From Tetramitus jugosus (lineage: Eukaryota; Heterolobosea; Eutetramitea; Acrasida; Vahlkampfiidae): 64,000 nucleotides of DNA. The notes below the pieces were generated by a model. It saw only the letters and a program-made list of their open reading frames with translations, was not told where the DNA came from and made no database searches. Position numbers and translations under genes: made by a program. Numbering within the stretch: position 1 is the first letter of the stretch; the number at the start of each line of letters is the position of its first letter. Shown piece by piece: positions 11,873 through 40,188 of this stretch. Where the stretch lies: assembly GCA_937625935.1 (NCBI GenBank), contig OW569366.1, positions 62,001 to 126,000 on the forward strand, in the 5' to 3' direction.

Positions 11873-11920
11873 GTGTATCTCGATAATTGTTTCCGCAAAA
11901 CAAAAAAAACAAGAACAAAA

Positions 11921-12039
11921 GCCTACATTACTGAGGGTTCTCGAGTAGTCTCCTATCTCAATACTAACTCAGCCAGATGGTGCTTAACTTCTCTATTCGA
12001 AATGGGAAGAGGTGGTTCCACCATTGTATGAACGTAGAC
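11921..12039 (-). rRNA. 5S ribosomal RNA (copy 1)
   Basis: The reverse complement begins GTCTACGTTCATACAATGG and ends CAGTAATGTAGGC. The ends pair over nine positions (helix I), and the conserved loop-B/C and box-C-type motifs TCCCATTTCGAA, AGAAGTTAAGC and GAGTTAGTA are present. Length is 119 nt. It is identical to copy 2 at 14004-14122. A T-run follows the 3' end (11917-11920, then a longer run from 11910 down), fitting Pol III termination. A 32-nt block upstream is also shared with copy 2 (one mismatch). Confidence 0.95.
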
Positions 12040-12061: not shown

Positions 12062-12718
12062 ATTTCCACATTATTATTATGGGCCAAGAGGGCAACAAAC
12101 CGGTTCCGATACCGGAACAAGAAGTTGCACAAAGAACTGCTCCTGGTCTGATGGAGACAGAAGAACAAAGGAGTGCAACACCACTGCCAACAGTGCCTGT
12201 TGCACAGCTCAGCGCTGAAAATCAGCAAATCCTGGAGCAAGTGAATGTTACTTCTCCAGTGTTTGCTAGAGCGAAGAAGGAAATTGCTGCATTGGCACTG
12301 GCCAGTGCACGCAAAAGGTATGGTTTGACTGAGGACGAACCAGTCATTGTGGATGTGGACGACGACTCCGAAAAGGAGATTCAAAGTCCACAACTCAATG
12401 ACAACAAGAAGAGGAGTGCTAGGATCACACTGGGTGATCTGAGGAGCAACAAGGCCCAAAACAAGAAAACAACAACAGATGGCTCTGTGTCCATCGGCGG
12501 TCCTACTACAAGGTTACGCTCTTTGATGAAGGGCATCAATCAAAACACTCACTTGAGTGATTCTTCCAACCTGTAGGTGCACCGTCGGGGACAACAAGAG
12601 AAGAAGAGTGAGCGACGCCCTACGGGTCGTCACTCACAAAACAAGTCAATAAATGAGCAATCGTGTGCTTGCGCACACTTGGTTGTATGGAACAAAAAAA
12701 AATTTCCACATTATTATT
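12062..12718 (+). mobile_element. 623-bp non-autonomous non-LTR retroelement with 17-bp TSD
   Basis: The 17-nt sequence ATTTCCACATTATTATT occurs at 12062-12078 and again at 12702-12718. Between them lies a 623-bp unit that starts exactly with ATG (12079), carries one 165-aa ORF, then two hairpins (about 12606-12637, loop CCCTACGGG; and GTGTGC-TTGC-GCACAC near 12663-12678), then GGTTGTATGGAAC and an A-run at about 12693-12702. The TSD, poly(A) and hairpin tail mark it as a product of target-primed reverse transcription. It lacks endonuclease and RT, so it must use an enzyme in trans; LINE-A at 29642-34866 has the same tail plan (two hairpins, TGGTTGTAT, A-run). The insertion point is 23-39 nt upstream of 5S copy 1, reading away from it. 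Confidence 0.8.
12079..12576 (+). CDS. ORF of the 623-bp retroelement (165 aa, unknown)
   Basis: The ORF starts at the first base after the target-site duplication (MGQEGNKPVPIPEQEVAQ) and stops at 12576. A longer frame from 11977 reaches back through the 5S gene but that part is only chance reading. The protein is polar, with a Pro/Gln/Glu-rich N-terminus, an acidic middle (VIVDVDDDSEKE) and a basic C-terminus (KKRSARITLGDLRSNKAQNKK, TRLRSLMKG). I see no RNA-binding domain or zinc knuckle and no clear similarity to the LINE-A ORF1 proteins. It may be an ORF1-like nucleic-acid-binding protein or the remaining tail of one. Confidence 0.55.
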   Translation: MGQEGNKPVPIPEQEVAQRTAPGLMETEEQRSATPLPTVPVAQLSAENQQILEQVNVTSPVFARAKKEIAALALASARKRYGLTEDEPVIVDVDDDSEKEIQSPQLNDNKKRSARITLGDLRSNKAQNKKTTTDGSVSIGGPTTRLRSLMKGINQNTHLSDSSNL

Positions 12719-13212: not shown

Positions 13213-13972
13213 TGTTTTTTCCATACAACACTTGTTGCCACTTTATTCTATACACTACAGTGAGACATGATTCCGCTCAGCACCGTTAGGTGACGACCAG
13301 TGTTTCATCTCTCTTCACAACAGAATTGATAAATACCTTGTGTAGTGCCTTGATGCAGGCACGTTTGGTTGAGTCGACGACTCCCTTAATCCTTTTCTCT
13401 GCCTCCCTCTTCTTGCGTCCTTTAAGATTTAGTTCCTCCAGATTTAGTTCCTCCCTATGTCTTCCTCTTTACCCATCAATCGTTCAAGAAGCCCCTCTGC
13501 AGATCTTTTGATGTTTCGTGGTTGGATCTCCCCTCCCCCAAAAATTGCATCATTCGAACCATAGAGCCAACTTGGCAGTGTCTGGTGGTTTCATCCTTAC
13601 AACTTGTCTTTTAGTTCCTCTGCCACTTTACTTCTTGCTGCTTTGGCATGATCACACTCAACCAGCAGATGAATGATGGTCTCGGACTTTTGCCACAAAG
13701 AGAACATGAAACATCGCCTAGGACATTGTACAACTTCTGCATGACCTCTTTCGTATGCAAGGTACCACTCCTGACTTGGTGGTAGAACCACAGTTCCTTC
13801 CTGTCCAGTCCAAAAGGACATTTCAAGAAATAGTTCCACTCCACCAAACGCCGAATCAAGCCACCATCCTCCATTTAATCCAATAATCTCTGTCCTCTGC
13901 TTTGAAAATGATACCACTACTCCTTCTCGAATGTTAGGATTCTCGTTGGCCATTGTTAGGCACCCCAAAAAA
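13213..13972 (-). mobile_element. decayed LINE ORF2 C-terminal relic (LINE-C)
   Basis: The minus-strand frames contain a reverse-transcriptase C-terminal zinc knuckle split by one frameshift: SCSLCGKS in one frame and ETIIHLLVECDHAKAARSKV in the next. It matches LINE-B (ETISHLLVECDEAKRVRKEL near 38850). Further on, RIKGVVDSTKRACIKALHKV matches the end of LINE-A (FVNRVKRRCVDTLHRL). The 3' end reads GTGTTGTATGGAAAAAAC (about 13212-13230), close to the tails of the other elements. Its 5' end abuts the 32-nt block upstream of 5S copy 2, about 31 nt from that gene, and it reads away from it. Confidence 0.7.
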
Positions 13973-14003: not shown

Positions 14004-14122
14004 GTCTACGTTCATACAATGGTGGAACCACCTCTTCCCATTTCGAATAGAGAAGTTAAGCACCATCTGGCTGAGTTAGTATTGAGATAGGAGACTACTC
14101 GAGAACCCTCAGTAATGTAGGC
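14004..14122 (+). rRNA. 5S ribosomal RNA (copy 2)
   Basis: Identical in all 119 positions to the minus-strand copy at 11921-12039 and in opposite (head-to-head) orientation. TCCCATTTCGAA, AGAAGTTAAGC and GAGTTAGTA mark the family and nine terminal positions pair. TTTTT follows at 14123-14127, a Pol III terminator. Upstream, 13972-14003 is shared with copy 1 with one mismatch, so the promoter-proximal flank is conserved while everything beyond it is retroelement DNA. Confidence 0.95.
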
Positions 14123-14170
14123 TTTTTGTTTGTGAGAATCTGGAAAGTTTAAACAAGAAATTATTTAATA

Positions 14171-29252: not shown

Positions 29253-29519
29253 GATAATGTTCTTTTTATTGAGGACATAAGTTCTAAGACTTCCCAATAA
29301 ATTTGTCACAATAATCTTCCTTTTCCGTCGTTGTTTGCATTGAATTCTACAGAAGTTCCATTCATATTCAGCACCACCAACAATCCATCAGTTCAGCATG
29401 CATTAAAGAATAAGAGTATTAATTCTTCTTCGTCTGACATCCTGTCTCTAATCCAACATTATCAAGAAAATAGCATGTTCTTCCACAGCGCCTGAAGCAA
29501 CAGGGATTTGTGACAAAAG

Positions 29520-29592
29520 TACCGACGACGGGACTCGAACCCGCGACCACTGGATTAGAAGTCCAGTGCTCTTCCAGCTGAGCTACGACGGC
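29520..29592 (-). tRNA. tRNA-Arg (anticodon TCT)
   Basis: The reverse complement folds as a standard cloverleaf: acceptor GCCGTCG/CGTCGGT (one U-U mismatch and a terminal G-U), D-arm GCTC/GAGC, anticodon stem CTGGA/TCCAG with loop CTTCTAA (anticodon TCT), and T-arm GCGGG-TTCGAGT-CCCGT. No intron. The discriminator base is A. TTTT follows at 29518-29515, a Pol III terminator. The A-box-like TAGCTCAGCTGG and B-box GGTTCGAGTCC are internal. LINE-A is inserted 39-49 nt upstream of the 5' end. Confidence 0.97.
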
Positions 29593-29643
29593 TTGATATG
29601 GACAAGAACCTCGAATTAATCAAAAAAGTGCATTTAAAAACAC

Positions 29644-29976
29644 ATGGAAACAAACGCAAACATTCCATCCTCAGCTGAGGCTAGGGAGTACTCCCGGGAA
29701 GGGTACGCGGTATGGACAGTACAGAATGTTGGGAGTAGCATCAACAAAAATGAGGTGGTGATCAAAGGTTCACAATGTCATAACACGGCACCAACAATTG
29801 CAAGAATGATTGGTACGAGATACAAGGGTTGGGTCACCAGAGCCCATGTGAGAAGGTGGGAAAAAGGTCAGTTCATTGCTTGGGTCAATGTGAAGGACGA
29901 CAAACTGTATGAGTTTGTTGAAACTTTCAATGATTCAAAACATGAATGCCTATGCCTCCATCAAGAGAGAAGTTGA
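29644..29976 (+). CDS. LINE-A ORF1, first part (110 aa)
   Basis: METNANIPSSAEAREYSREG is followed by a compact segment with AVWTVQNVGS, EVVIKGSQCHNTAPTIARMI, RAHVRRWEKGQFIAWVNVKD and DKLYEFVETFND. The same segment, with substitutions, is found in LINE-B (YVVWTKMSKEAATKRDEVVI ... WIIVRDDKVWEFIQWL at 34915-35150), so it is conserved. Its beta-alpha pattern could be an RNA-binding (RRM-like) fold, as in L1 ORF1; that is a guess. The frame overlaps the next one (29909) by 68 nt, shifted +1. Confidence 0.7.
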   Translation: METNANIPSSAEAREYSREGYAVWTVQNVGSSINKNEVVIKGSQCHNTAPTIARMIGTRYKGWVTRAHVRRWEKGQFIAWVNVKDDKLYEFVETFNDSKHECLCLHQERS

Positions 29977-30475
29977 CGCGGAGAAAAAGTTGGTCATCCA
30001 CAAGGTATTGGGAAAGTCAAGGGACTACATAGCCAAACTGGTCGGAGAAGAAAAGGTCAGACATGTTGAGGTCAAGGGCAACACTGCGTTTGTAACCATG
30101 ACTTCTCAGTCTTATGCTCAAGCTGTCATAGGCGATAAGCAAATTTCAGCAGAGATAAGCCCATACATACAAAGAAGCCAAGATCCTGTGAAGCTACTTA
30201 CGAGAAAGTTTCAGAGAACTACTGACACTTTGAAACAACAAATGGAAGAACTAATGAAGAGAGTCAGACAACTGGAGATGGAAATAAGTCTGATAGAGGA
30301 AAAGAAAAGTGGGAAAAAGGCTGCCAAAGCAGTGAAAAGAACTAGTCGCCCAATCCAACCTACTATACTCACTGTCCTTGAATCTGAAGAAAAAGGAGAG
30401 GAAGATGCAACAATGGAAGCTGAAGTTATCACCATAGTGCCTTTGGTTCTCCGCATAACCTTGACAGGGACATGA
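29909..30475 (+). CDS. LINE-A ORF1, second part with coiled coil (188 aa)
   Basis: This frame is +1 relative to the first part. After the overlap it reads VIHKVLGKSRDYIAKLVGEE and HVEVKGNTAFVTMTSQSYAQ, again an RRM-like alternation. A strongly charged helical region follows (FQRTTDTLKQQMEELMKRVR, LEMEISLIEEKKSGKKAAKA), likely a coiled coil for trimerisation as in other LINE ORF1 proteins. LINE-B has a matching coiled-coil region (KRSVAQLQRDMNKMLDDYRR) in the same relative frame. The TGA stop overlaps the next start as ATGA at 30472-30475. Confidence 0.65.
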   Translation: MSLLKLSMIQNMNAYASIKREVDAEKKLVIHKVLGKSRDYIAKLVGEEKVRHVEVKGNTAFVTMTSQSYAQAVIGDKQISAEISPYIQRSQDPVKLLTRKFQRTTDTLKQQMEELMKRVRQLEMEISLIEEKKSGKKAAKAVKRTSRPIQPTILTVLESEEKGEEDATMEAEVITIVPLVLRITLTGT

Positions 30476-30945
30476 CAGCAAACGGAGAGAATAGCGATGT
30501 GACCATGCTAGTAGAGAACGGTGAGGTAGTTCCACGTCAAGATACAGTCGTGACTCCTACCAATAGCGTGGAAAATCAAACACAGCCACCAAATGTCAGT
30601 GAACCGCCCGATGAACAAAATATGGAAGAACGAAAGAAGCTCTTAATTAGTGCTAGACGAGCTAAGAGGAGAGAGCGTGCTCTCTCGGACAGCCAAGCAC
30701 TCATTTACAACTACGCCGTAATAAGGGAGGACACACCAAGAAAAAAGAATGGCAAGCGTGGAACCAACACAATACTCTCGGAGAACTCGAGGAAGAGAGC
30801 ACTCCTCAAAACTCCCGAAAGGATGGCTCAGATGAAAGATTTGGTACAAGCCAGCAAAGAGGTTGCATCAACAATAGTTAATGTACACGCGACTCACAAG
30901 GATGTAGTGAATCACCCCCAGTTAGACCATACCCCACCATGTTAA
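30472..30945 (+). CDS. LINE-A accessory ORF between ORF1 and ORF2 (157 aa)
   Basis: It starts within the stop of the previous frame (ATGA) and ends inside the start of ORF2 (ATGTTAA at 30939-30945). The product is polar: an Asn/Val/Pro-rich first third, then a basic stretch (RRAKRRERAL, PRKKNGKRGTN, SRKRALLKTPERMAQ). No domain was recognised. It could be a separate small protein or the C-terminal nucleic-acid-binding tail of ORF1 reached by a frame change. Confidence 0.55.
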   Translation: MTANGENSDVTMLVENGEVVPRQDTVVTPTNSVENQTQPPNVSEPPDEQNMEERKKLLISARRAKRRERALSDSQALIYNYAVIREDTPRKKNGKRGTNTILSENSRKRALLKTPERMAQMKDLVQASKEVASTIVNVHATHKDVVNHPQLDHTPPC

Positions 30946-33900
30946 AAGTGATGTGGTACAACATCAATGGCATCAAAGGGAAGGCCAATGATGTCGTAGA
31001 CTTCCTGGAGTCGGAGCAAATAGACGTACTGCTGCTGCAGGAGGCCACAAATATAGATGAATATTGGCTGAAAACAATCAGCAAGAAATTGATGAGGATC
31101 CAGTGCATACTGGTATGTGAGGTCCCCAACAAACATCTGGCTGCAATTATCAGAACCACTACAGTGCCATCGTACGGAGTGATGCACAGTGGGGACAGAC
31201 TACAGGTCCTCAAGATCACTACGGTGAACGAGTCATTTGTTGTTGCAAACCACTACGGCCCGCACAAAAAGGATCGAGAACACTACAAGCTGTTTGGGGA
31301 GACAGTAAGCAAGTTCGCAAATGAGGGTAAATTTCTTTTAGGGGGTGATCATAATGCTGTAACAGTCGCGTCGGACAGGTCACAGAAGCGACTTGATGAA
31401 AACTCTGCATTACTTCTGCAGGCACTGATGGAGAACAACCTACAAGACGTTAATGAGCTGAAAGGTGTAGAAAGGTTTCACACATTCTACAGAAGTGGCA
31501 GCTCGTCAAGGATTGACCATGTGTGGTGCAACAGAGCAGGAGGTGAGGCTATCAACACCATAGAAATGTTTACAAGGAACGGTGTACACAGTGATCACTT
31601 TCTTACAATGATAACACTGAGAACCGATACTCAGCGCTCCCTGAATCACAACAGAACGGTCTATAGATTCCCAAAGAATAAGGAGGACCCAAAGTGGCTT
31701 CGGTACGGGGCGGAGCTCATCAGCGTTCTCGAGAACAACCTGCTAAACACGATTGAGGATGTGGATGAACAATGTAGGATCATCACTTCCTCCATTTTTA
31801 ACCAGGCCAAAGTGTTTGAACATGCCGGTGAGGTGAAAATATGGCGCAATAGTAGAGCCGTCAAACGTTTGTTGAAAAGAAGAGAAGTGCTTGTTAAGTT
31901 CTTGGCAAACCGCGAGTGGACTGGCGAAGTTGAATCAATGTGTGGATGGGACACTATCGACTCTCGGGAGTCAAGGGTATGGTATTCGTTGAAAAAGGTT
32001 AGCGAATCTCTCCACAAAGTAAGAGCCCACAAAGCGAATCAAAAGTTCAGAAAGTGGGAGTGGAAGGCTCGAACGTCAGAATTCTCTGATCCATCATCGT
32101 TCTTCTCGGCCTCTACGGCGAAGAAGAGCTCTAGGGTTCGGCTGTCAAGAGTAAAAGTCGGTGGAATTGAACATATGGATGATGCCACTGTTGGTGAAGT
32201 GGCGGCCGAGTACTTTGAGGGTGCGTTTGCTCCTGCAGTTGCAGACATGACTTACTTAGATGGTCTGAGAAGCAGTGGAAACAGAGATTTGATCCAACAG
32301 GCCTTCACCCCCATCACCACAGAAGAGGTCAGCAAAGCAGTAGGTTGGCTCAGAAATCGTAAGTGCCCTGGGCCAGACGGTATACACAACGAAATGTTGA
32401 AAGTTCCATGCACAAAGAAGAGGGACTACAGATGGGAACTCTCCGACATTTTAGCTGGCTTTTTCAACAACATCACTAAGCAGGGGAAGTTTCCTGCCAT
32501 GTGGAAGGAAGCTACGATTATCTCAGCTTACAAGAAGGGTGACGCTACTAACCCGGCTAACTACAGACCAATATGCCTCCTGAGTACTGTGTCGAAATTG
32601 TACACCAAGTTGATTAATAGAAGAATCTCTGTTGCTGCTGAGACAGGAGGGATTTTCTCTAATGTTCAAGGTGGCGGCAGAAAGTTCCGGGACATTCGGG
32701 AGAAGCTGTCCATAGTAAGAGGAATCATTGACCATGCCAACAGGGAAAACAAGCAACTGTTCCTGCTTTTGACAGACATATCTAAAGCGTTTGATTCGGT
32801 ACCACACAACGCAATCAAGGCAATTTATGAGTTCTTTGAATTCCCTGACAATGTTGTCAGATTGGTGAGTGGAATGGTGGAGAACAATTTTGCTGGTGTT
32901 CTGACGAGAGCTGTCTCAAGAAGGTTCCCTATCGGAAAGGGAACAAGGCAAGGTGACTCTTTATCACCTACCACATACATTCTAGTGCACCAAACGGTGT
33001 TGATGTATGTTGACAGGAAGGTACTAGGTTACCGAGCTATGTCTCAAGGATTGTGGAACGCGGCCTACATCGACGATTGCAATTTGTTCGCCGAATCCAG
33101 GGCAGATATTGAGCGTGCTGCACAGGCGATGTCGGAGGTTCTATCACTACGGATGTCGATGCACCCTGACAAGCTTGAACTGTATGTGCGACAAATGGAG
33201 AAGGACACAGGGTATGACATAGAGGTGGATGGAACAGTTGTTCCCGCGAGAGACAGTTCTCGAGTCTTTCGAGCACTGGGTCTTTTCACCAACCTAAAGG
33301 GGAATACAAAACAACAAATTGAGCAGGCATGGAACAAGTCCCAAAGAGTGGTGACTAGGTTGAAAATGATGAAGCTTACTCCCAGACAGGTGGCAAGAGT
33401 AGTGAACACATGTATTCACCCTATTTTCAAGTATGCATCTGAGTTCACTGATTGGACTGATGGATGGATACTCAAGGTGAACAGACTGGGTAGGATGCTG
33501 GTCAAGCACGGATCGGTAGCAATGAAACGCTTCCCCTCCGAACTGCTCCCGGTCAGCAGTGATCGTGGATCGATCGGTCTGAACGATATAGAAGAAACTA
33601 TCACGACGCAAACCGCCTGGTTTGTCAGTACCATGGTGTCTGGTAAGAGAGATACCGAAGCGAAACAGCTGTTGCTTGACACGCTTGAGGAGATCAAGCA
33701 AAAACAAACATTCCAATCAGAGAATGTATTTCAGTCAAGCAACAGGCTGGAACACGCTAAGCACTCTTACATGAAGTGGTGTGCGCTAAGAATGCACAGA
33801 TACAATATCAAACTAGGGAAGGAACGGGTCTACAACAACTGTGATGACTGCAATATCGCACGATATGTGCCATCAGTTATCCTCAAAAGGCTCTACCTTG

Positions 33901-34322
33901 GTGGTATTACAAACAGGGACCAATTGGTCCTGGACAACAAGCTCAAAAGTCTGAAGGACATCAGAATTGATTTCCCGGGGTGCAAGATCGGGACAAGATC
34001 TCATGAGATGCTGAAAATCGTGGTGTCACAAATGAACGGTTGTGAGTGTCAATCACAAAGGGAGGATCCCTCCAGCAGTAACGCAGAATCCCTCATGATG
34101 GGGGACTCCCGTATCGAGAGCAGAGAGCAGCTACAGTCAATGATGGATCAACAAAGGACCGAAAGAATCTCGGGAATGGGGCTCTACTGGCTGCAAGCTG
34201 ATGCAATACGAAGCGGAGCTGACTTCAGCTTTCTGAAGTACCCACACAAGATCAATAGGCAAGTGGAGTGGTTCTTCACACAAAAGAGACAAAGCGCTGT
34301 CTATATGGCAAGGATGAAGTGA
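30939..34322 (+). CDS. LINE-A ORF2: AP-like endonuclease and reverse transcriptase (1127 aa)
   Basis: The enzyme should nick the target DNA and copy its own RNA from the nick. Endonuclease motifs appear in order: WYNINGIKG, LLLQEATN, NHYGPHKK, LLGGDHNAV, SSRIDHVW and GVHSDHF (residues about 3-230), matching the N, QE, Y, D-x-N, RID and SDH positions of APE-type LINE nucleases. RT motifs follow: RKCPGPDGI (about 470), NYRPICLLSTVSKL, DISKAFDSVPHNA (about 612), GTRQGDSLSP, YIDD (710-713, the catalytic Asp pair) and HPDKLEL. The frame ends just before a zinc-knuckle coded in the next frame (34322). Confidence 0.92.
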   Translation: MLKVMWYNINGIKGKANDVVDFLESEQIDVLLLQEATNIDEYWLKTISKKLMRIQCILVCEVPNKHLAAIIRTTTVPSYGVMHSGDRLQVLKITTVNESFVVANHYGPHKKDREHYKLFGETVSKFANEGKFLLGGDHNAVTVASDRSQKRLDENSALLLQALMENNLQDVNELKGVERFHTFYRSGSSSRIDHVWCNRAGGEAINTIEMFTRNGVHSDHFLTMITLRTDTQRSLNHNRTVYRFPKNKEDPKWLRYGAELISVLENNLLNTIEDVDEQCRIITSSIFNQAKVFEHAGEVKIWRNSRAVKRLLKRREVLVKFLANREWTGEVESMCGWDTIDSRESRVWYSLKKVSESLHKVRAHKANQKFRKWEWKARTSEFSDPSSFFSASTAKKSSRVRLSRVKVGGIEHMDDATVGEVAAEYFEGAFAPAVADMTYLDGLRSSGNRDLIQQAFTPITTEEVSKAVGWLRNRKCPGPDGIHNEMLKVPCTKKRDYRWELSDILAGFFNNITKQGKFPAMWKEATIISAYKKGDATNPANYRPICLLSTVSKLYTKLINRRISVAAETGGIFSNVQGGGRKFRDIREKLSIVRGIIDHANRENKQLFLLLTDISKAFDSVPHNAIKAIYEFFEFPDNVVRLVSGMVENNFAGVLTRAVSRRFPIGKGTRQGDSLSPTTYILVHQTVLMYVDRKVLGYRAMSQGLWNAAYIDDCNLFAESRADIERAAQAMSEVLSLRMSMHPDKLELYVRQMEKDTGYDIEVDGTVVPARDSSRVFRALGLFTNLKGNTKQQIEQAWNKSQRVVTRLKMMKLTPRQVARVVNTCIHPIFKYASEFTDWTDGWILKVNRLGRMLVKHGSVAMKRFPSELLPVSSDRGSIGLNDIEETITTQTAWFVSTMVSGKRDTEAKQLLLDTLEEIKQKQTFQSENVFQSSNRLEHAKHSYMKWCALRMHRYNIKLGKERVYNNCDDCNIARYVPSVILKRLYLGGITNRDQLVLDNKLKSLKDIRIDFPGCKIGTRSHEMLKIVVSQMNGCECQSQREDPSSSNAESLMMGDSRIESREQLQSMMDQQRTERISGMGLYWLQADAIRSGADFSFLKYPHKINRQVEWFFTQKRQSAVYMARMK

Positions 34323-34729
34323 TGGAAAGATGTGAGCGATGTCTCAAAGAGCCAGAGACGATACAACACTGTCTCATACGTTGTCCAAGGGCCATCGTGC
34401 GCCGAAGATGACTGGCATTGTCAGTAGGTAAAGACCTTGACAAGCTGGGTATTCATCATAAGCAGCAAATCAATATATGGTTTGATAATGTTGTGTGGAA
34501 GGATGGTAAAGTCTCTGTGAGAGAAAATCGTAAGACAAGCAAGGAGTTCCTATCTGGTATGATGGGGGTTGAAAATGAAGCAGTGGAACAAGTAACAAAA
34601 GGTTTGAAAATGAACGGTGTGAAGAAGGTCATGGCGGAAAAGAAAGCGAAATCGTTCGTGAACAGGGTGAAGAGGAGGTGCGTCGACACCCTTCATCGCC
34701 TATTCATCTCCCACAAGGAAGACACATAA
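34322..34729 (+). pseudogene. LINE-A ORF2 C-terminal zinc knuckle and tail, out of frame
   Basis: The frame begins at an ATG overlapping the ORF2 stop (TGATG, 34320-34324). It reads MERCERCLKEPETIQHCLIR then CP, i.e. a CxxC...HxxxxC zinc knuckle typical of LINE RT C-termini, then meets an in-frame TGA at 34409-34411 and continues to 34729 (IWFDNVVWKDG, SGMMGVENEAVEQ, VNRVKRRCVDTLHRLF). The tail is conserved in LINE-C and LINE-D, so it once belonged to ORF2. Either LINE-A has just lost it by one frameshift and one nonsense change, or it is reached by recoding. Confidence 0.65.
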
Positions 34730-34801
34730 CAATGACGCTCTACGAGCGTCATTGTGAGAAATGAAAAGTAACGGAGGAGATAACGCTCTTCGAGCGTTAT
34801 C
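34729..34801 (+). other. LINE-A 3' UTR double hairpin
   Basis: Stem 1 is ACAATGACGCTC (34729-34740) with loop TAC and a perfect 12-nt complement (34744-34755). Stem 2 is GATAACGCTC (34779-34788) with loop TTC and a perfect 10-nt complement (34792-34801). Both share the core ACGCTC-NNN-GAGCGT. They precede TGGTTGTAT and the A-run. A pair of hairpins at the same place in the 623-bp element suggests they are the RT recognition structure. Confidence 0.7.
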
Positions 34802-34885
34802 CAGTGTAAATAGTCAGAAAATAAAATCGGAGCAACCGAAATGGTTGTATTAAAAAAAAAAAAAAACATTTAAAAACGCGAACAC

Positions 34886-35750
34886 ATGTCACAAGGACCG
34901 TCAGTACAGGCGGTAATGATCCGCAGAAGTCAATATGTTGTATGGACAAAGATGAGCAAAGAAGCAGCTACGAAGAGAGATGAAGTAGTCATCACTATGG
35001 GAGGTGCAGCAATGTAACTCCAGAAGCAATAGCAAACAAACTAGTTGCGGGCTGCTCGGAGTGGGTAGAGAGGGTACAAGTAGTTAGGAGAGGTGAAAGC
35101 TACAAGGCGTGGATAATTGTCAGAGATGACAAAGTTTGGGAATTCATTCAGTGGTTGCAGTTGCACAAAAGTGTTGAAGGATTCCACTGCAAGTGTCAAT
35201 GGAAGAATGAGAGCGACACATGACGTAGTAATTTCCGGAGCTGGGAAGATCAGCAAGGAAGATATTGAAACTTGGGCTGGTCGGGATAACGTGCAACAAG
35301 ACTAGGAAATTTGTTCACAAAACACTCGAACCAATGGATTTATTGAAGAGAAGTGTAGCTCAGCTTCAAAGAGACATGAACAAGATGCTAGATGATTACA
35401 GGAGGAGTGTGGAAGAAATTCGATTTCTTAAGTCGGAAATGATGAAGATGAGACTTCGGGTGAGTAAGCTGGATGGAGCGAACAAAAGCACCATACAAGA
35501 GAAAGTAACTAAACCTAGGGACATACTGGAGGAACCACAAAATGCAGTGCAAACGATGGACGATGATCCGGTGAGCACACCAGTGGCCCAGATAAAAAAC
35601 AGAGGGAAACTAATGATTGATGAAGGTCAGAGGAGAATGGATGATTTTGTAAGCAACAGAGGAAAGAAGCGAGATGCTAGGGAAGTCGACGATGAAGAGG
35701 TACAAAGGAAGATAATTATGACTAATTCCCCTATGGAACGATTCGAGTGA
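34886..35750 (+). pseudogene. LINE-B ORF1 region, broken
   Basis: MSQGPSVQAVMIRRSQYVVW begins the first frame, which stops at a TAA near 35018 after a one-base loss. The next frame (TPEAIANKLVAGCSEWVERV ... DDKVWEFIQWL) matches the first part of LINE-A ORF1 and stops at 35220. The coiled-coil part (from about 35117, then 35265-35750: SVAQLQRDMNKMLDDYRRSV) again lies in a +1 frame. No counterpart of the LINE-A accessory ORF is clear. The tail is basic and acidic in turn (NRGKKRDAREVDDEEVQRK). Confidence 0.6.
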
Positions 35751-35802
35751 ACAGTACTCAAGAGAGTGTGGTTCCACCACAAGAGCTCGGACATAGCGAG
35801 CT

Positions 35803-38800
35803 ATGAGTACGACACTCAATGTCGTTTGGTACAACATCAGAGGGTTAGGAGGGAAACGAAACGATGTTGTTGCCATGATGGAGACGATCCTCCCAAGGAT
35901 TGATGTTCTGATGCTGCAAGAGGCGAGTTGCAAGAGTGAAAAGTTCAAGGCGACTTTTGAAAAGCAGCTGGAGTATGCCGGGTGTATGTTGATACACACC
36001 AACACAGATGACAGAATAATGACGATATTAAGAAGAGAGAGTATTCAAGAGTACAGAACACTGTTGACGAACCAAAGATTGTTGGCTGTAGAGGTGGCAA
36101 GCGGAGATCTGCGAGTCACCCTGGTCAATCATTACGGACCTCACAAAAGAGCTGAAGGCGGACATCACATATGTGATGGTCAATGAGGCATTGAGAGTGC
36201 TCTCATGCAGGGGAAAACTATTGTTTGGTGGGGATCACAATACAGTGATAAACAGTACTGAGCGGACCTCTCAGTTAGATGACAATAGTGCACATTTTAA
36301 GGCAATGGTGGAAGGGTTACAATTGAGCGATGTTAATACGGTTACAGACACACCCCATTTTCACACGTTCTTTAGAGGCGAGTTCTCTTCTCGCATCGAC
36401 TCAGTCTGGTGCAATTCACCAGCCACTGACATTGTTAGAGATGTGGAAAAGTACACAGACAATGGGGTAAGGAGTGATCACATACCTACGATGGTAAAGG
36501 TATGGTGGACAAAGGTGGAGGCACAAGGGCCCACAGAAGAAAAGCCCAAGTTCCCAAAGAGTGACAGCAAGATGTGGATAGAGTACTCTAAAGAGGTGGT
36601 TGAGGAGCTAGATAAAATCAACATGGCGGAAATGGATGTTGATGAACAATGTGACCGGATCACTATGATCTTAAAGGAAAGTGCAAAGAGGTTTCCTAAG
36701 TGTAAACCAATTGCGAGAGGAATTGACAACCGCAGAGTAAAACGTTGGCTGAAGGATAGAATGGTTTTAGTGGAGCGGCTGTCTTCCCATGACACCGGTT
36801 CACCGAAACTCATGAGGGTTTGCAAGGCGTACAATGAGGACTGTACTCTGAGAGGTATTTTGGCATCACTGAAGATTGTCGATGGGCTTGTACAAGTTGA
36901 AAGAGCCCGTAGGGCTAACACGTGGTTTTCCAAGTGGTTGTACAAAGCCAGAACTACAGAATTCGTGGACCCCCGATTCTTCTTCAATGCTGCCACAGGC
37001 AAGAAGGCACTGAGGCTAAGATTCAAGAGTTACAAGAGTGGAGAAAAGGTGATCACTGCCCCGGAAAAGGTAGCTGAGCATGCTGCTGATTACTTTGAGG
37101 AGGTGTTTGAACAAGAATATGCAGACATGACGTTCCTAGACGAGATGAGATGCAGGACTGAGAGTATGGAGGATATTTTTCCCCCGTTCAAGTTGGAGGA
37201 GGTGCTGCAATCCTTAAAGTGGCTGCGAAACGGTAAAGCATCGGGGGTCGACAAGATATTCAATGAAATGCTCAAATTGAGACACACCAAGGAAAGAGAC
37301 TATAGAGTTGAGTTCACAGAGGCGCTGATGACTTTCTTCAATAGAATATTAGAGACCGGGCAATTCCCGTGTGAATGGAAGAGGTGTGTTATAGTTCCGG
37401 CGTACAAGAAGGGCTGCCCTATGATGATAGGGAACTTTCGCCCTATATGCCTGCTCAGCGGTCTATCAAAGGTTTTCACTCGGTTTCTTAACCAAAGAGT
37501 GTCAGCTGCTGCTGAGAAAATGTGTGTATTCAACAACACACAAGGTGGGGATCGTAAAATGCGTGACATCAGAGAAAAGCTGTCCATCATTAGAGGAGTG
37601 ATCGATCACGCAAATAGAAATGATAAGCAGTTGTATCTTCTGCTTACCGACATCTCGAAGGCATTCGACAGTGTACCACACAATGCCGTCACTGCTGCCT
37701 ACCGGTTTTTCAACTTCCCAGAGGGTATCATCACGCTCGTCAGGAACATGTTGGAATCGAATGTGGCAACAGTCGGTACACAACACACATCCCGGTCGAT
37801 TGATATCAACAGAGGCAAGGGGACTCATTGTCTCCCACGACTTATGTGATAGTCCATCAGCTAGTGTTGCTGTATGCAAAGCTAAGAGCAAGTGGCTACC
37901 AAGCCATGAGCCAGAGAATCTGGAATGTAGCTTACGTAGATGACCTTTTCAGTGATGATCTCCAGGACATCCAGTCGACGGCTAATGATATGTACAGGGC
38001 GCTCAAGTGGGTTGGTCTGAGTATGCACCCAGACAAGCTGGAGTTCTTTGAAAAGTGGGTGAAGCTCCTGTGACGATCAGAGTGGCTGATAAGGTGATTA
38101 CTGCAAAGGACAAACACACAGGCTTTAGAGCACTTGGGCTGTTTACAAACCTCAATGGGGACACAGAGGCCCAGAAGAAGCAAGCAAAGCAGAAGGTATT
38201 GAGAATCCTGAATCGGTTGAGGATGCTGAAGCTGGGACCAAGTCAGGCAGCGAGGATAGTGAACACATGTATCCATCCTGTATTCTTGTTTGCTTCAGAG
38301 TTTACCCATTGGCCAAAGAAATGGCTAAACGAAATCGAGGGTATTGGACGCAAGGCAGTGAAACATGGATCGAGTGCCATGAAAAGGTTTCCCTCTTTGC
38401 TGCTGTCAGTGGAGAGGGACAAAGGAGGTATTGGACTCAATGAATTCAAAGAGAGTTTTTTGAGATCTCTGCCTTTGTCGTGGGGATGCTGCAAGGTAAG
38501 AGAGACACGGAAGCACGGACACTTCTGTTGGATACGCTTGATGATGTCAAGCAATCGCAAACGCTCGTTCGGTCGAGCATATTTCAATCCAACAATCGTC
38601 TTCGTGAGACCAAACACTCTTACCTGTCTTGGTGCGCCAAACTTCTACATGGCTCGAAGGTTAAAGTGGGTCCCAAAGGAGATCATGAATGTGAGAAATG
38701 CAGTATTGGGTGGCATCTCCCTACGGGAGACGCAAAACTACTCATTCAAAGTGGAATTTCCAAAAACTCCCAACTCTTCGATGAGGATGGGATAATGGTT

Positions 38801-39000
38801 ATCCCGTTTGAGTAAGCTCACTGTGCGAGTGCGCCGGAGACGATCAGCCACTTACTGGTGGAATGTGATGAAGCCAAAAGGGTAAGGAAAGAACTGGTGG
38901 AGGAATTTAAAGCCAAATTGGACAAGCTGGAGTTTATGAGACCAGTCAAGCTAAAGATATGGTTCGATGATGTGGTTTACGAGACGATAAGCAGGTTCTC
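35803..39000 (+). pseudogene. LINE-B ORF2 (endonuclease/RT), broken in several frames
   Basis: Pieces are 35803-36186 (VVWYNIRGLGGKRNDVV, LMLQEAS, NHYGPHKR), 36173-37849 (LLFGGDHNTVI, SSRIDSVW, GKASGVDKIFNEMLK, NFRPICLLSGLSKVF, DISKAFDSVPHNAV), 37828-38073 (AYVDDLFSDD, HPDKLEF), 38055 to about 38470, about 38470-38815, and 38820-39000 (PETISHLLVECDEAKRV, KIWFDDVVYETISRF). At least five frame changes separate parts collinear with LINE-A ORF2, so this copy cannot make an active enzyme. The YVDD box differs from YIDD in LINE-A. Confidence 0.8.
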
Positions 39001-39007
39001 AATTGAA

Positions 39008-39275
39008 GGCAAATTTCTTTTAGAAGGATGGAGAACAACCTACAAGACCTCAATGAGCTTAAAGGTGTGGAAAGGTTTCACACATTCTACAGAAGTGGCA
39101 GCTCATCAAGAATTGACCACGTGTGGTGCAACAGAGCAGGAGTTGAGGCTACATGTTTACAAGGAATGTTGTACACAGTGATCACATTCCTACAATGATC
39201 ACACTGAGAACCAATACACAGCCCTCACTGAATCACAGCAGAACAGGGAATATGCATAAGGAGGAACAGACTACC
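39008..39275 (+). repeat. fragment of the LINE-A endonuclease region inside the LINE-B 3' part
   Basis: GGCAAATTTCTTTTAG (39009-39024) matches LINE-A 31325-31340, then the match resumes at GATGGAGAACAACCTACAAG (LINE-A about 31427) and follows LINE-A closely through TTTCACACATTCTACAGAAG, ATTGACCA(C/T)GTGTGGTGC and up to about 31690. About 85 nt and some shorter stretches are missing. The segment is not a 5'-truncated LINE end, since it comes from the endonuclease domain and lacks any 3' end. Confidence 0.75.
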
Positions 39276-39537
39276 AAACTATGTGTTAGTTTCAATTCCA
39301 GAGTATGGGGGATTCATTTGCTGTAGATCCTGTAAGCGATCCACCTCCGGAGGTATGATCCAGGATCTGTTTAGCTAAGAATATGATACTTCCGAGGATG
39401 ACACGGAATGTCGCAACGAGGAATCCTCTGTTCACATCGTTTGTAAATAAGAGATGAAGTTAGTTAGAACAACATTGTGTTACAAGGAACAAAGTTTGGC
39501 ACCGGATAGACTGGTGCTACTACACTTGTATTAAACA

Positions 39538-40188
39538 TTAAATGTTTCCAGATAAAACATCTTTCCATGATTGACGAGCAGAAATCTTCTCCCACCATAA
39601 CTTGACATGTGGGCGATCATTAATCAATGAAGACAATCCAATCTGCTCATGGAACAAAAAGTTTGCATATGTCAAATGGAAAAGATCAGCCAATGTGAAA
39701 CTATTTCCTCCGATGTACTCTTGCTTGCTCAAAATCTTCTCATACACATCCAAGTATCCAGTGAGCTTTTCTATTTTGTCCTGCACCAGTGCTTCATCTG
39801 CACCACCGAGGCCATTCAATGCTTTGAACACCTTTTCAAAAGTAATAATGGATGTATGTGGATCCCAGTATGACATTTCGATCGATGCTCCCTGTTCAAA
39901 CAGCCCCAACTCTTTCAAATCAGTGGGGATCAATTGCGTTCCACTATCCTTGTATTTTGCTTCAATGTATCGACAAATGGCACGCGATTCGTACACTAAA
40001 AATCCATCTTCATCTTCCAATACTGGCATTAAGCCAAATGGTTGTTTCTCCAGGAATTTCTCGCTCTTCTGTTCTTTATTGTAGAAATCAACGTGAATCA
40101 ATTCATAAGGCACTTGTTTCTCTTTCAGTGTGATGAGCACTCGTTGGGTGGGTGTTGAGGATGCAAAGCCATGAATCTTGAGTACCAT
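39538..40188 (-). CDS. glutathione S-transferase
   Basis: The 216-residue protein has the thioredoxin-like N-domain (KIHGFASSTPTQRVLITLKE, PFGLMPVLEDEDGFLVYESR, where MPV holds the cis-Pro and ESR binds glutathione) and the helical C-domain (YIGGNSFTLADLFHLTYAN, the conserved N-capping box with the structural Asp). The Ser near residue 10-11 (SST) fits a catalytic Ser as in phi/theta-like classes. It conjugates glutathione to electrophiles in the cytosol. The stop codon is within a few bases of the LINE-B 3' end, so its native 3' UTR may have been replaced by LINE-B sequence. Confidence 0.92.
   Translation of the reverse strand: MVLKIHGFASSTPTQRVLITLKEKQVPYELIHVDFYNKEQKSEKFLEKQPFGLMPVLEDEDGFLVYESRAICRYIEAKYKDSGTQLIPTDLKELGLFEQGASIEMSYWDPHTSIITFEKVFKALNGLGGADEALVQDKIEKLTGYLDVYEKILSKQEYIGGNSFTLADLFHLTYANFLFHEQIGLSSLINDRPHVKLWWEKISARQSWKDVLSGNI

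Follow-up and report, generated by a model that had tools for sequence, protein, structure and literature searches.

The non-long-terminal-repeat (non-LTR) retrotransposon TRE5-A of Dictyostelium, a member of the L1 clade, inserts about 40-54 bp upstream of tRNA genes and in opposite orientation to them (PMC5911963, PMC5391098, PMC5006619). It is also found upstream of 5S rRNA genes, at about 35-41 bp, which is shorter than at tRNA genes (35-39 nt in PMC5391098; PMC5911963). About 60% of the Dictyostelium tRNA genes carry a TRE (PMC5006619), and the variant TRE5-A.2, which has open reading frame 1 (ORF1) only, is mobilised in trans (PMC5391098). Polysphondylium pallidum harbours NLTR-B, a non-LTR element distantly related to the TREs and encoding RNase H, and Ty3, DGLT-A and Tj1 also insert upstream of genes transcribed by RNA polymerase III (Pol III), Ty3 by way of TFIIIB (PMC5911963, PMC5006619). 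In the accessible part of the Naegleria and Heterolobosea literature on retrotransposons and tRNA or 5S genes we found no description of Pol III targeting, and a prior mention is possible, mainly in subscription papers; the N. fowleri genome paper puts the share of long interspersed nuclear elements (LINEs) in the nuclear genome at 1.85%; their positions are not given in its available part. Here we analyse a 64,000-nucleotide stretch of the heterolobosean Tetramitus jugosus (contig OW569366.1, positions 62,001 to 126,000; 41.8% GC), called the window below, in which an element named LINE-A lies beside a tRNA-Arg gene. It belongs to a set of non-LTR elements which stand upstream of tRNA and 5S rRNA genes at set distances and read away from them, with high probability through an insertion complex held by TFIIIB/TFIIIC.

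LINE-A had been proposed, from the letters of the window alone, to stand just upstream of tRNA-Arg, to point away from it and to be bounded by an 11-bp target-site duplication (TSD); both TSD copies were located and the arrangement was confirmed (Table 1). Like TRE5-A.1, LINE-A has an ORF1 and an ORF2 with an endonuclease of the apurinic endonuclease (APE) type and a reverse transcriptase (RT), the Pfam matches in ORF2 being Exo_endo_phos (E-value 1.4e-8, 35.2 bits, cut-off 24.5) and RVT_1 (E-value 1.8e-23, 83.8 bits, cut-off 29.6). The joint presence of these two domains in ORF2, together with a poly(A)-type 3' end, TSDs and 5' truncation, is what is expected of an APE-type LINE. The hairpins of its 3' untranslated region (UTR) exceed chance (z -6.0 over 34730-34860). 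It shares with NLTR-B, found at 39-64 bp, the position of a non-LTR element upstream of tRNA genes but differs from it in ORF2, where no RNase H model of Pfam was matched at E-values up to 1. Ty3, DGLT-A and Tj1 are more distant, being LTR elements with an integrase that insert at or near the transcription start. In a protein search with the RT no dictyostelid appeared among the few named of the 120 matches listed (169 in all), and the best matches in the PDB were 8c8j (human L1 ORF2p) and R2 proteins, whose scores were too similar to favour either.

For the genome-wide comparison the assembly holding the window was searched (G000; 26.3 Mb, 56 contigs), and flank stretches or loci taken from it carry L-numbers. 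With the first 900 bases of LINE-A as query 21 matches were obtained, and in 16 the 5' end of the element is covered (query start 1-7). Of these 16 starts, 12 (the window and 11 others) directly adjoin an upstream tRNA gene of opposite orientation, and the remaining four come after a poly(A) tail that belongs to a different element; behind one of them (L094) stands an element of a family named Z and then tRNA-Ala, and behind another (L092) no gene was present in the further-out 401-base stretch L118. A second probe, the 623-bp element that lies beside a 5S gene in the window, identified at least 40 copies of a family named E, scored among 108 candidates; apart from the window copy, flanks were available for 38 copies (about 1.5 kb to either side for 20 and a 301-base stretch for 18), and the last copy lies in L015 near a LINE. 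Directly upstream of 27 of the 40 E copies there is a tRNA or 5S gene, seven start behind the tail of another element, one (L069) at a tRNA relic, and five were left unassigned. As judged by eye, the apparent relic at L069 lacks the 5' acceptor strand and the TSD is still there, so that the target tRNA gene may have decayed after insertion.

The same association was seen from the side of the genes. From 63 tRNAs listed among 1593 candidates, the ten on contigs C54 and C56, mitochondrial by our guess, were dropped, and element DNA was detected within 250 nt upstream of 31 of the other 53 (26 of 48 flanks, and the window, L071, L085, L110 and L117); the proportion given for Dictyostelium is about 60%. 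Reversed tRNA flanks gave no matches. For 5S genes (the first 30 of 47), element DNA was present within 300 nt upstream of 17 and within 300 nt downstream of none (Fisher p 6e-7), and at 1000-1300 nt the numbers were 3 and 3 of 30. The words that mark the 3' tails, GTTGTATGGAANAAAAA and GTTGTATTNAAAAAAA, occur 116 and 181 times in the genome (0 and 1 times, respectively, in the control). On contigs C1-C11, where the lists of tails, 5S genes and B boxes are complete (one strand of two palindromic B boxes dropped), a divergent tRNA or 5S gene was recorded within 6 kb upstream of 48 of the 77 element 3' ends, while random placement of the tails (C10 taken as 600 kb) produced 4.3 on average and never more than 12 in 1000 trials. 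A gene in the same orientation lies upstream of only 4 of the 77 tails, and the two downstream configurations were found 4 and 8 times. Thus the copies are not scattered without regard to Pol III genes on these contigs, and both the enrichment and the away-reading polarity, which the sequence-only reading had drawn from three insertions in the window, extend beyond it.

The positions themselves were measured by a TSD scan of every tRNA and 5S gene in L001-L080 and in the window, in which the flank next to the gene (15-100 nt) and the bases that follow an away-reading tail were compared for a direct repeat. The scan gave 38 rows and 35 were kept, an overlapping second row at L029 and two likely chance matches (L073-T at 50-60 and L045 at 86-100) being dropped; among mismatched gene-tail pairs a repeat occurred in 84 of 4918. 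For elements with the TTGTATGG tail the gene-proximal TSD edge lies 27-31 nt upstream of the tRNA gene in 13 of 14 cases and at 36 in one (mean 29.9), and 22-26 nt upstream of the 5S gene in 8 of 8 (mean 23.8). For elements with the TTGTATT tail the corresponding values are 39-41 nt in 7 of 7 (mean 40.1) and 34-37 nt in 6 of 6 (mean 35.3). There is no overlap between the two tail classes within either gene type (Mann-Whitney p=2.5e-4 for tRNA and 2.2e-3 for 5S), and the tRNA and 5S distances differ within each class (p=1.4e-4 for TTGTATGG and 2.7e-3 for TTGTATT tails). The classes are thus 10-11 nt apart, approximately one helical turn, and in both of them the 5S position is nearer to the gene by 5-6 nt. 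TSDs are 11-19 nt long (median 15). A strong target-sequence motif was looked for at their edges and rejected, as these exhibit no strong base consensus, only an A/T bias; the register follows the 3' tail class and not the DNA sequence.

The 5' junctions of intact starts, some of them at loci also covered by the TSD scan, have medians of 43 nt for E (22 tRNA loci, 35-49), 54 nt for Z (5 loci, 53-55) and 55 nt for LINE-A (7 loci, 43-62), and together they span 35-62 nt, near the 40-54 bp of TRE5-A and not identical to it. As in TRE5-A, 5S genes are targeted as well, slightly closer than tRNA genes; unlike in TRE5-A, two registers tied to the 3' tail exist in one genome. In intact E, Z and LINE-A-type copies a variable run of 2-14 A stands between the TSD and the fixed sequence, which could reflect slippage at the start or untemplated addition.

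Some insertions are stacked. In five cases (LINE-A and LINE-B of the window, L005/L082, L010, L024 and L029) the TSD contains the apparent first bases of the next, older element; in the window the last bases of the distal LINE-A TSD (AAAAAC) resemble the 5' start of LINE-B, which is probably the older of the two. At L002 and L014 insertions of both registers, their TSDs overlapping, stand at one and the same tRNA gene. Most simply, distance would be measured from the gene irrespective of the sequence found there, and older copies would be displaced outward: with a ruler anchored at the gene, a new copy would come to lie between the gene and the older ones.

The E element is about 1.35 kb long and encodes one protein of 382 amino acids, its ORF being intact in 16 of 20 copies; in a 17th (L068) it ends at the same stop and begins earlier. 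Among the 16 copies the ratio of nonsynonymous to synonymous changes (dN/dS) is about 0.26 when taken over 97 of 120 pairs, those with at least 20 changes, and 0.21 when taken over 20 closer pairs; of the 20 copies, L068, L070, L074 and L075 were left out, and the choice of intact copies biases the value slightly. Such a ratio suggests that ORF1 is kept by selection in source elements. E carries the TTGTATGG tail and the matching register, and its 3' UTR hairpins are beyond chance (z -3.5). The AlphaFold model of its ORF1 protein is of modest quality (mean pLDDT 63, pTM 0.33) and predicts two RRM-like domains and a coiled coil, unlike TRE5-A; the best Foldseek matches are tandem-RRM proteins, with low whole-chain TM-scores (0.22 by query). 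Relatives of E (P0012-P0016) are present on short contigs, and E-ORF1 is 46% identical to the Z-like P0014. The Z family (P0014-like), to which at least 40 of 75 candidates belong, carries the TTGTATT tail and the matching register; a single copy, about 1.5 kb long and flanked by tRNA-Ala and LINE-A (L117/L094), and the 414-amino-acid relative P0014 point to Z being an ORF1-only family too. E, and by this reasoning probably Z, therefore has the trait of an ORF1-only partner as known from TRE5-A.2, and both would be copied in trans by the ORF2 protein of LINEs with the same tail. HAL1 or half-L1 elements are likewise ORF1-only derivatives of LINEs, and Pol III targeting is not known for them. 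The likeness to the Dictyostelium TREs that had been noted earlier was borne out in distance, orientation, 5S shift, occupancy and ORF1-only partner, all of which closely match TRE5-A/TRE5-A.2.

Table 1. Positions, within the window, of LINE-A, its neighbours and the elements at 5S rRNA genes
Feature	Position	Strand	Description
5S rRNA gene	11920-12039	minus	Target of the 623-bp element
Gene-proximal TSD copy of the 623-bp element	12062-12078	+	17 bp, ATTTCCACATTATTATT; -23 to -39 of 5S
623-bp element	12079-12701	+	5'-truncated copy of E; TTGTATGG tail
Distal TSD copy of the 623-bp element	12702-12718	+	17 bp
LINE-C	13236-13968	minus	5'-truncated LINE; TTGTATGG tail; points away from the 5S gene at 14004
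5S rRNA gene	14004-14123	+	Upstream of LINE-C
tRNA-Arg(TCT) gene	29519-29592	minus	Target of LINE-A
Gene-proximal TSD copy of LINE-A	29631-29641	+	CATTTAAAAAC; -39 to -49 of tRNA-Arg
LINE-A	29642-34866	+	Near full length; TTGTATT-tail class; points away from the tRNA
LINE-A ORF1	29644-30475	+	Split over two frames (29644-29976, 29909-30475)
LINE-A ORF2	30939-34322	+	1127 aa; APE-type endonuclease and reverse transcriptase
LINE-A structured 3' UTR	34730-34866	+	Three hairpins, TTGTATT tail, poly(A)
Distal TSD copy of LINE-A	34867-34877	+	CATTTAAAAAC
LINE-B	34872-39533	+	Frame-broken; TTGTATT tail; behind LINE-A in one stack

Two further insertions in the window had been taken, together with LINE-A, as three cases of the same distance and polarity. 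The polarity stands; the distance is only roughly the same, as two registers exist. The 623-bp element is present, reads away from its 5S gene and has a 17-bp TSD, and it turned out to be the 3' part of the ORF1-only family E, neither a short interspersed element (SINE) nor a full element. LINE-C points away from the other 5S gene (14004-14123), and no exact TSD was found by eye. The proposal that 5S genes form part of the element was rejected because the TSD lies between gene and element.

Several observations concern the surroundings. For LINE-B a TSD was looked for and none was found; 218 of its bases near the 3' end (39027-39244) are 86% like an ORF2-internal segment of LINE-A (31427-31657), as in a mosaic or a nested fragment. 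A glutathione S-transferase-like gene, recognised by a PDB search (39538-40188, minus strand), ends directly behind the LINE-A/LINE-B stack. The 5S genes are dispersed, with 121 matches on many contigs (first 100 places listed), mostly as single copies and not in one array, whereas the 5S targets of Dictyostelium belong to an extrachromosomal rDNA element. Within the first 40 nt upstream of 5S genes two kinds of flank can be distinguished by eye in L031-L060, CTATTTCC..TTTTT and TTTTTCACA..TTTTGGCC, perhaps two promoter types. LINEs such as Mutsu are site-specific and cut inside an RNA gene at a fixed sequence. An element of this type was considered and rejected: adjoining genes are complete (tRNAs by ARAGORN, 5S of at least 115 nt), the junctions lie outside them, although the TSD scan itself covered only sequence outside genes, and a strong site consensus is missing.

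In the mechanism that we propose, the Pol III initiation factors TFIIIB/TFIIIC would hold the insertion complex, with ORF1 and/or ORF2 protein touching TFIIIB, and would in this way fix the position of the endonuclease cut. The first strand would be nicked at the gene-proximal TSD edge and target-primed reverse transcription would follow. Two LINE lineages may dock with their nicks one helical turn apart on the same face of the DNA, the register being set by the ORF2 protein that reads the tail, and newer copies would insert next to the gene and push older ones outward. Several points count against targeting of this kind. Among the 26 matching tRNA flanks the match starts beyond 100 nt in four (L123, L127, L135, L141), two apparent insertions point toward the gene (L045 at 5S and L152 at tRNA), and the downstream control comprised 5S genes only. 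In addition, for 29 of the 77 tails the lists show no divergent gene within 6 kb; at least four of these tails (L099, L106, L111, L114) adjoin a tRNA gene missed by the B-box word, and others may sit in stacks, although not all are accounted for. The 5' junctions scatter more than the TSD edges (E 35-49, LINE-A 43-62), and the one deviating TTGTATGG-tail TSD, at 36 instead of 27-31, comes from L073. Furthermore, the TSD scan covered away-reading elements only, 15-100 nt outside genes, and the 35 insertions that it yielded are from a single genome, with many of the loci picked for holding elements.

The more detailed version, which we regard as evenly balanced between right and wrong, holds that a single kind of Pol III complex is read by two LINE lineages whose rulers differ by one helical turn, that the 3' tail picks the ruler via ORF2 and E and Z inherit the register with it, that the targeting arose independently of dictyostelids, and that stacks are ordered in time with the youngest copy at the gene. 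The strongest competitor of this version assigns each register to the element's own ORF1 in place of the ORF2/3' tail lineage; the ORF1 protein of TRE5-A indeed binds TFIIIB subunits in vitro (PMC5391098, PMC5911963), which makes the idea possible though rather doubtful, as E and LINE-C-like copies (L034, L044, L048; 3' fragments) share both register and tail. This sharing does not by itself separate ORF1 from tail, because ORF1 may co-evolve with the tail, as the 46% identity of E-ORF1 and P0014 illustrates.

Tethering by bound factors has also to be weighed against an endonuclease that recognises the sequence or bending of the DNA, such as a promoter element conserved upstream of the genes. 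On inspection by eye, CTATTTCC..TTTTT recurs in many flanks upstream of 5S genes and TATA-like words begin many tRNA flanks, but apart from the A/T bias neither TSD edge has a strong consensus, some insertions at the set distance hit the starts of older elements, and tRNA and 5S flanks, unlike each other by eye, are both targeted with a constant shift; we therefore find this reading improbable. Random or broad insertion followed by selection, which would spare copies near Pol III genes as harmless there, agrees with the view that in compact genomes the flanks of Pol III genes are safe sites (PMC5006619). It is very improbable here, because registers a few nucleotides wide, a mostly fixed orientation and the upstream bias at 5S genes are far finer than it could select, and near-identical E copies (L061-L063, 100% to the window copy) show the pattern too. 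That tRNA or 5S genes are part of a mobile unit, or that gene and element were copied together by segmental duplication, is hardly credible in spite of the dispersed 5S genes, a few of which stand head-to-head with elements between them (window, L022), as TSDs, with sequences that vary among loci, separate gene from element, many tRNA isotypes are targeted, and in the flanks inspected, which were not searched systematically, no sharing beyond the TSDs was noticed.

If TFIIIB/TFIIIC guide the elements to Pol III genes, a compact genome would be able to harbour hundreds of copies with little harm. If the RTs prove to be unrelated to those of the TREs, the architecture of the Pol III complex itself would channel LINEs to one solution, and the presence of registers 10-11 nt apart in one genome makes the question of what tethers TRE5-like elements directly testable.

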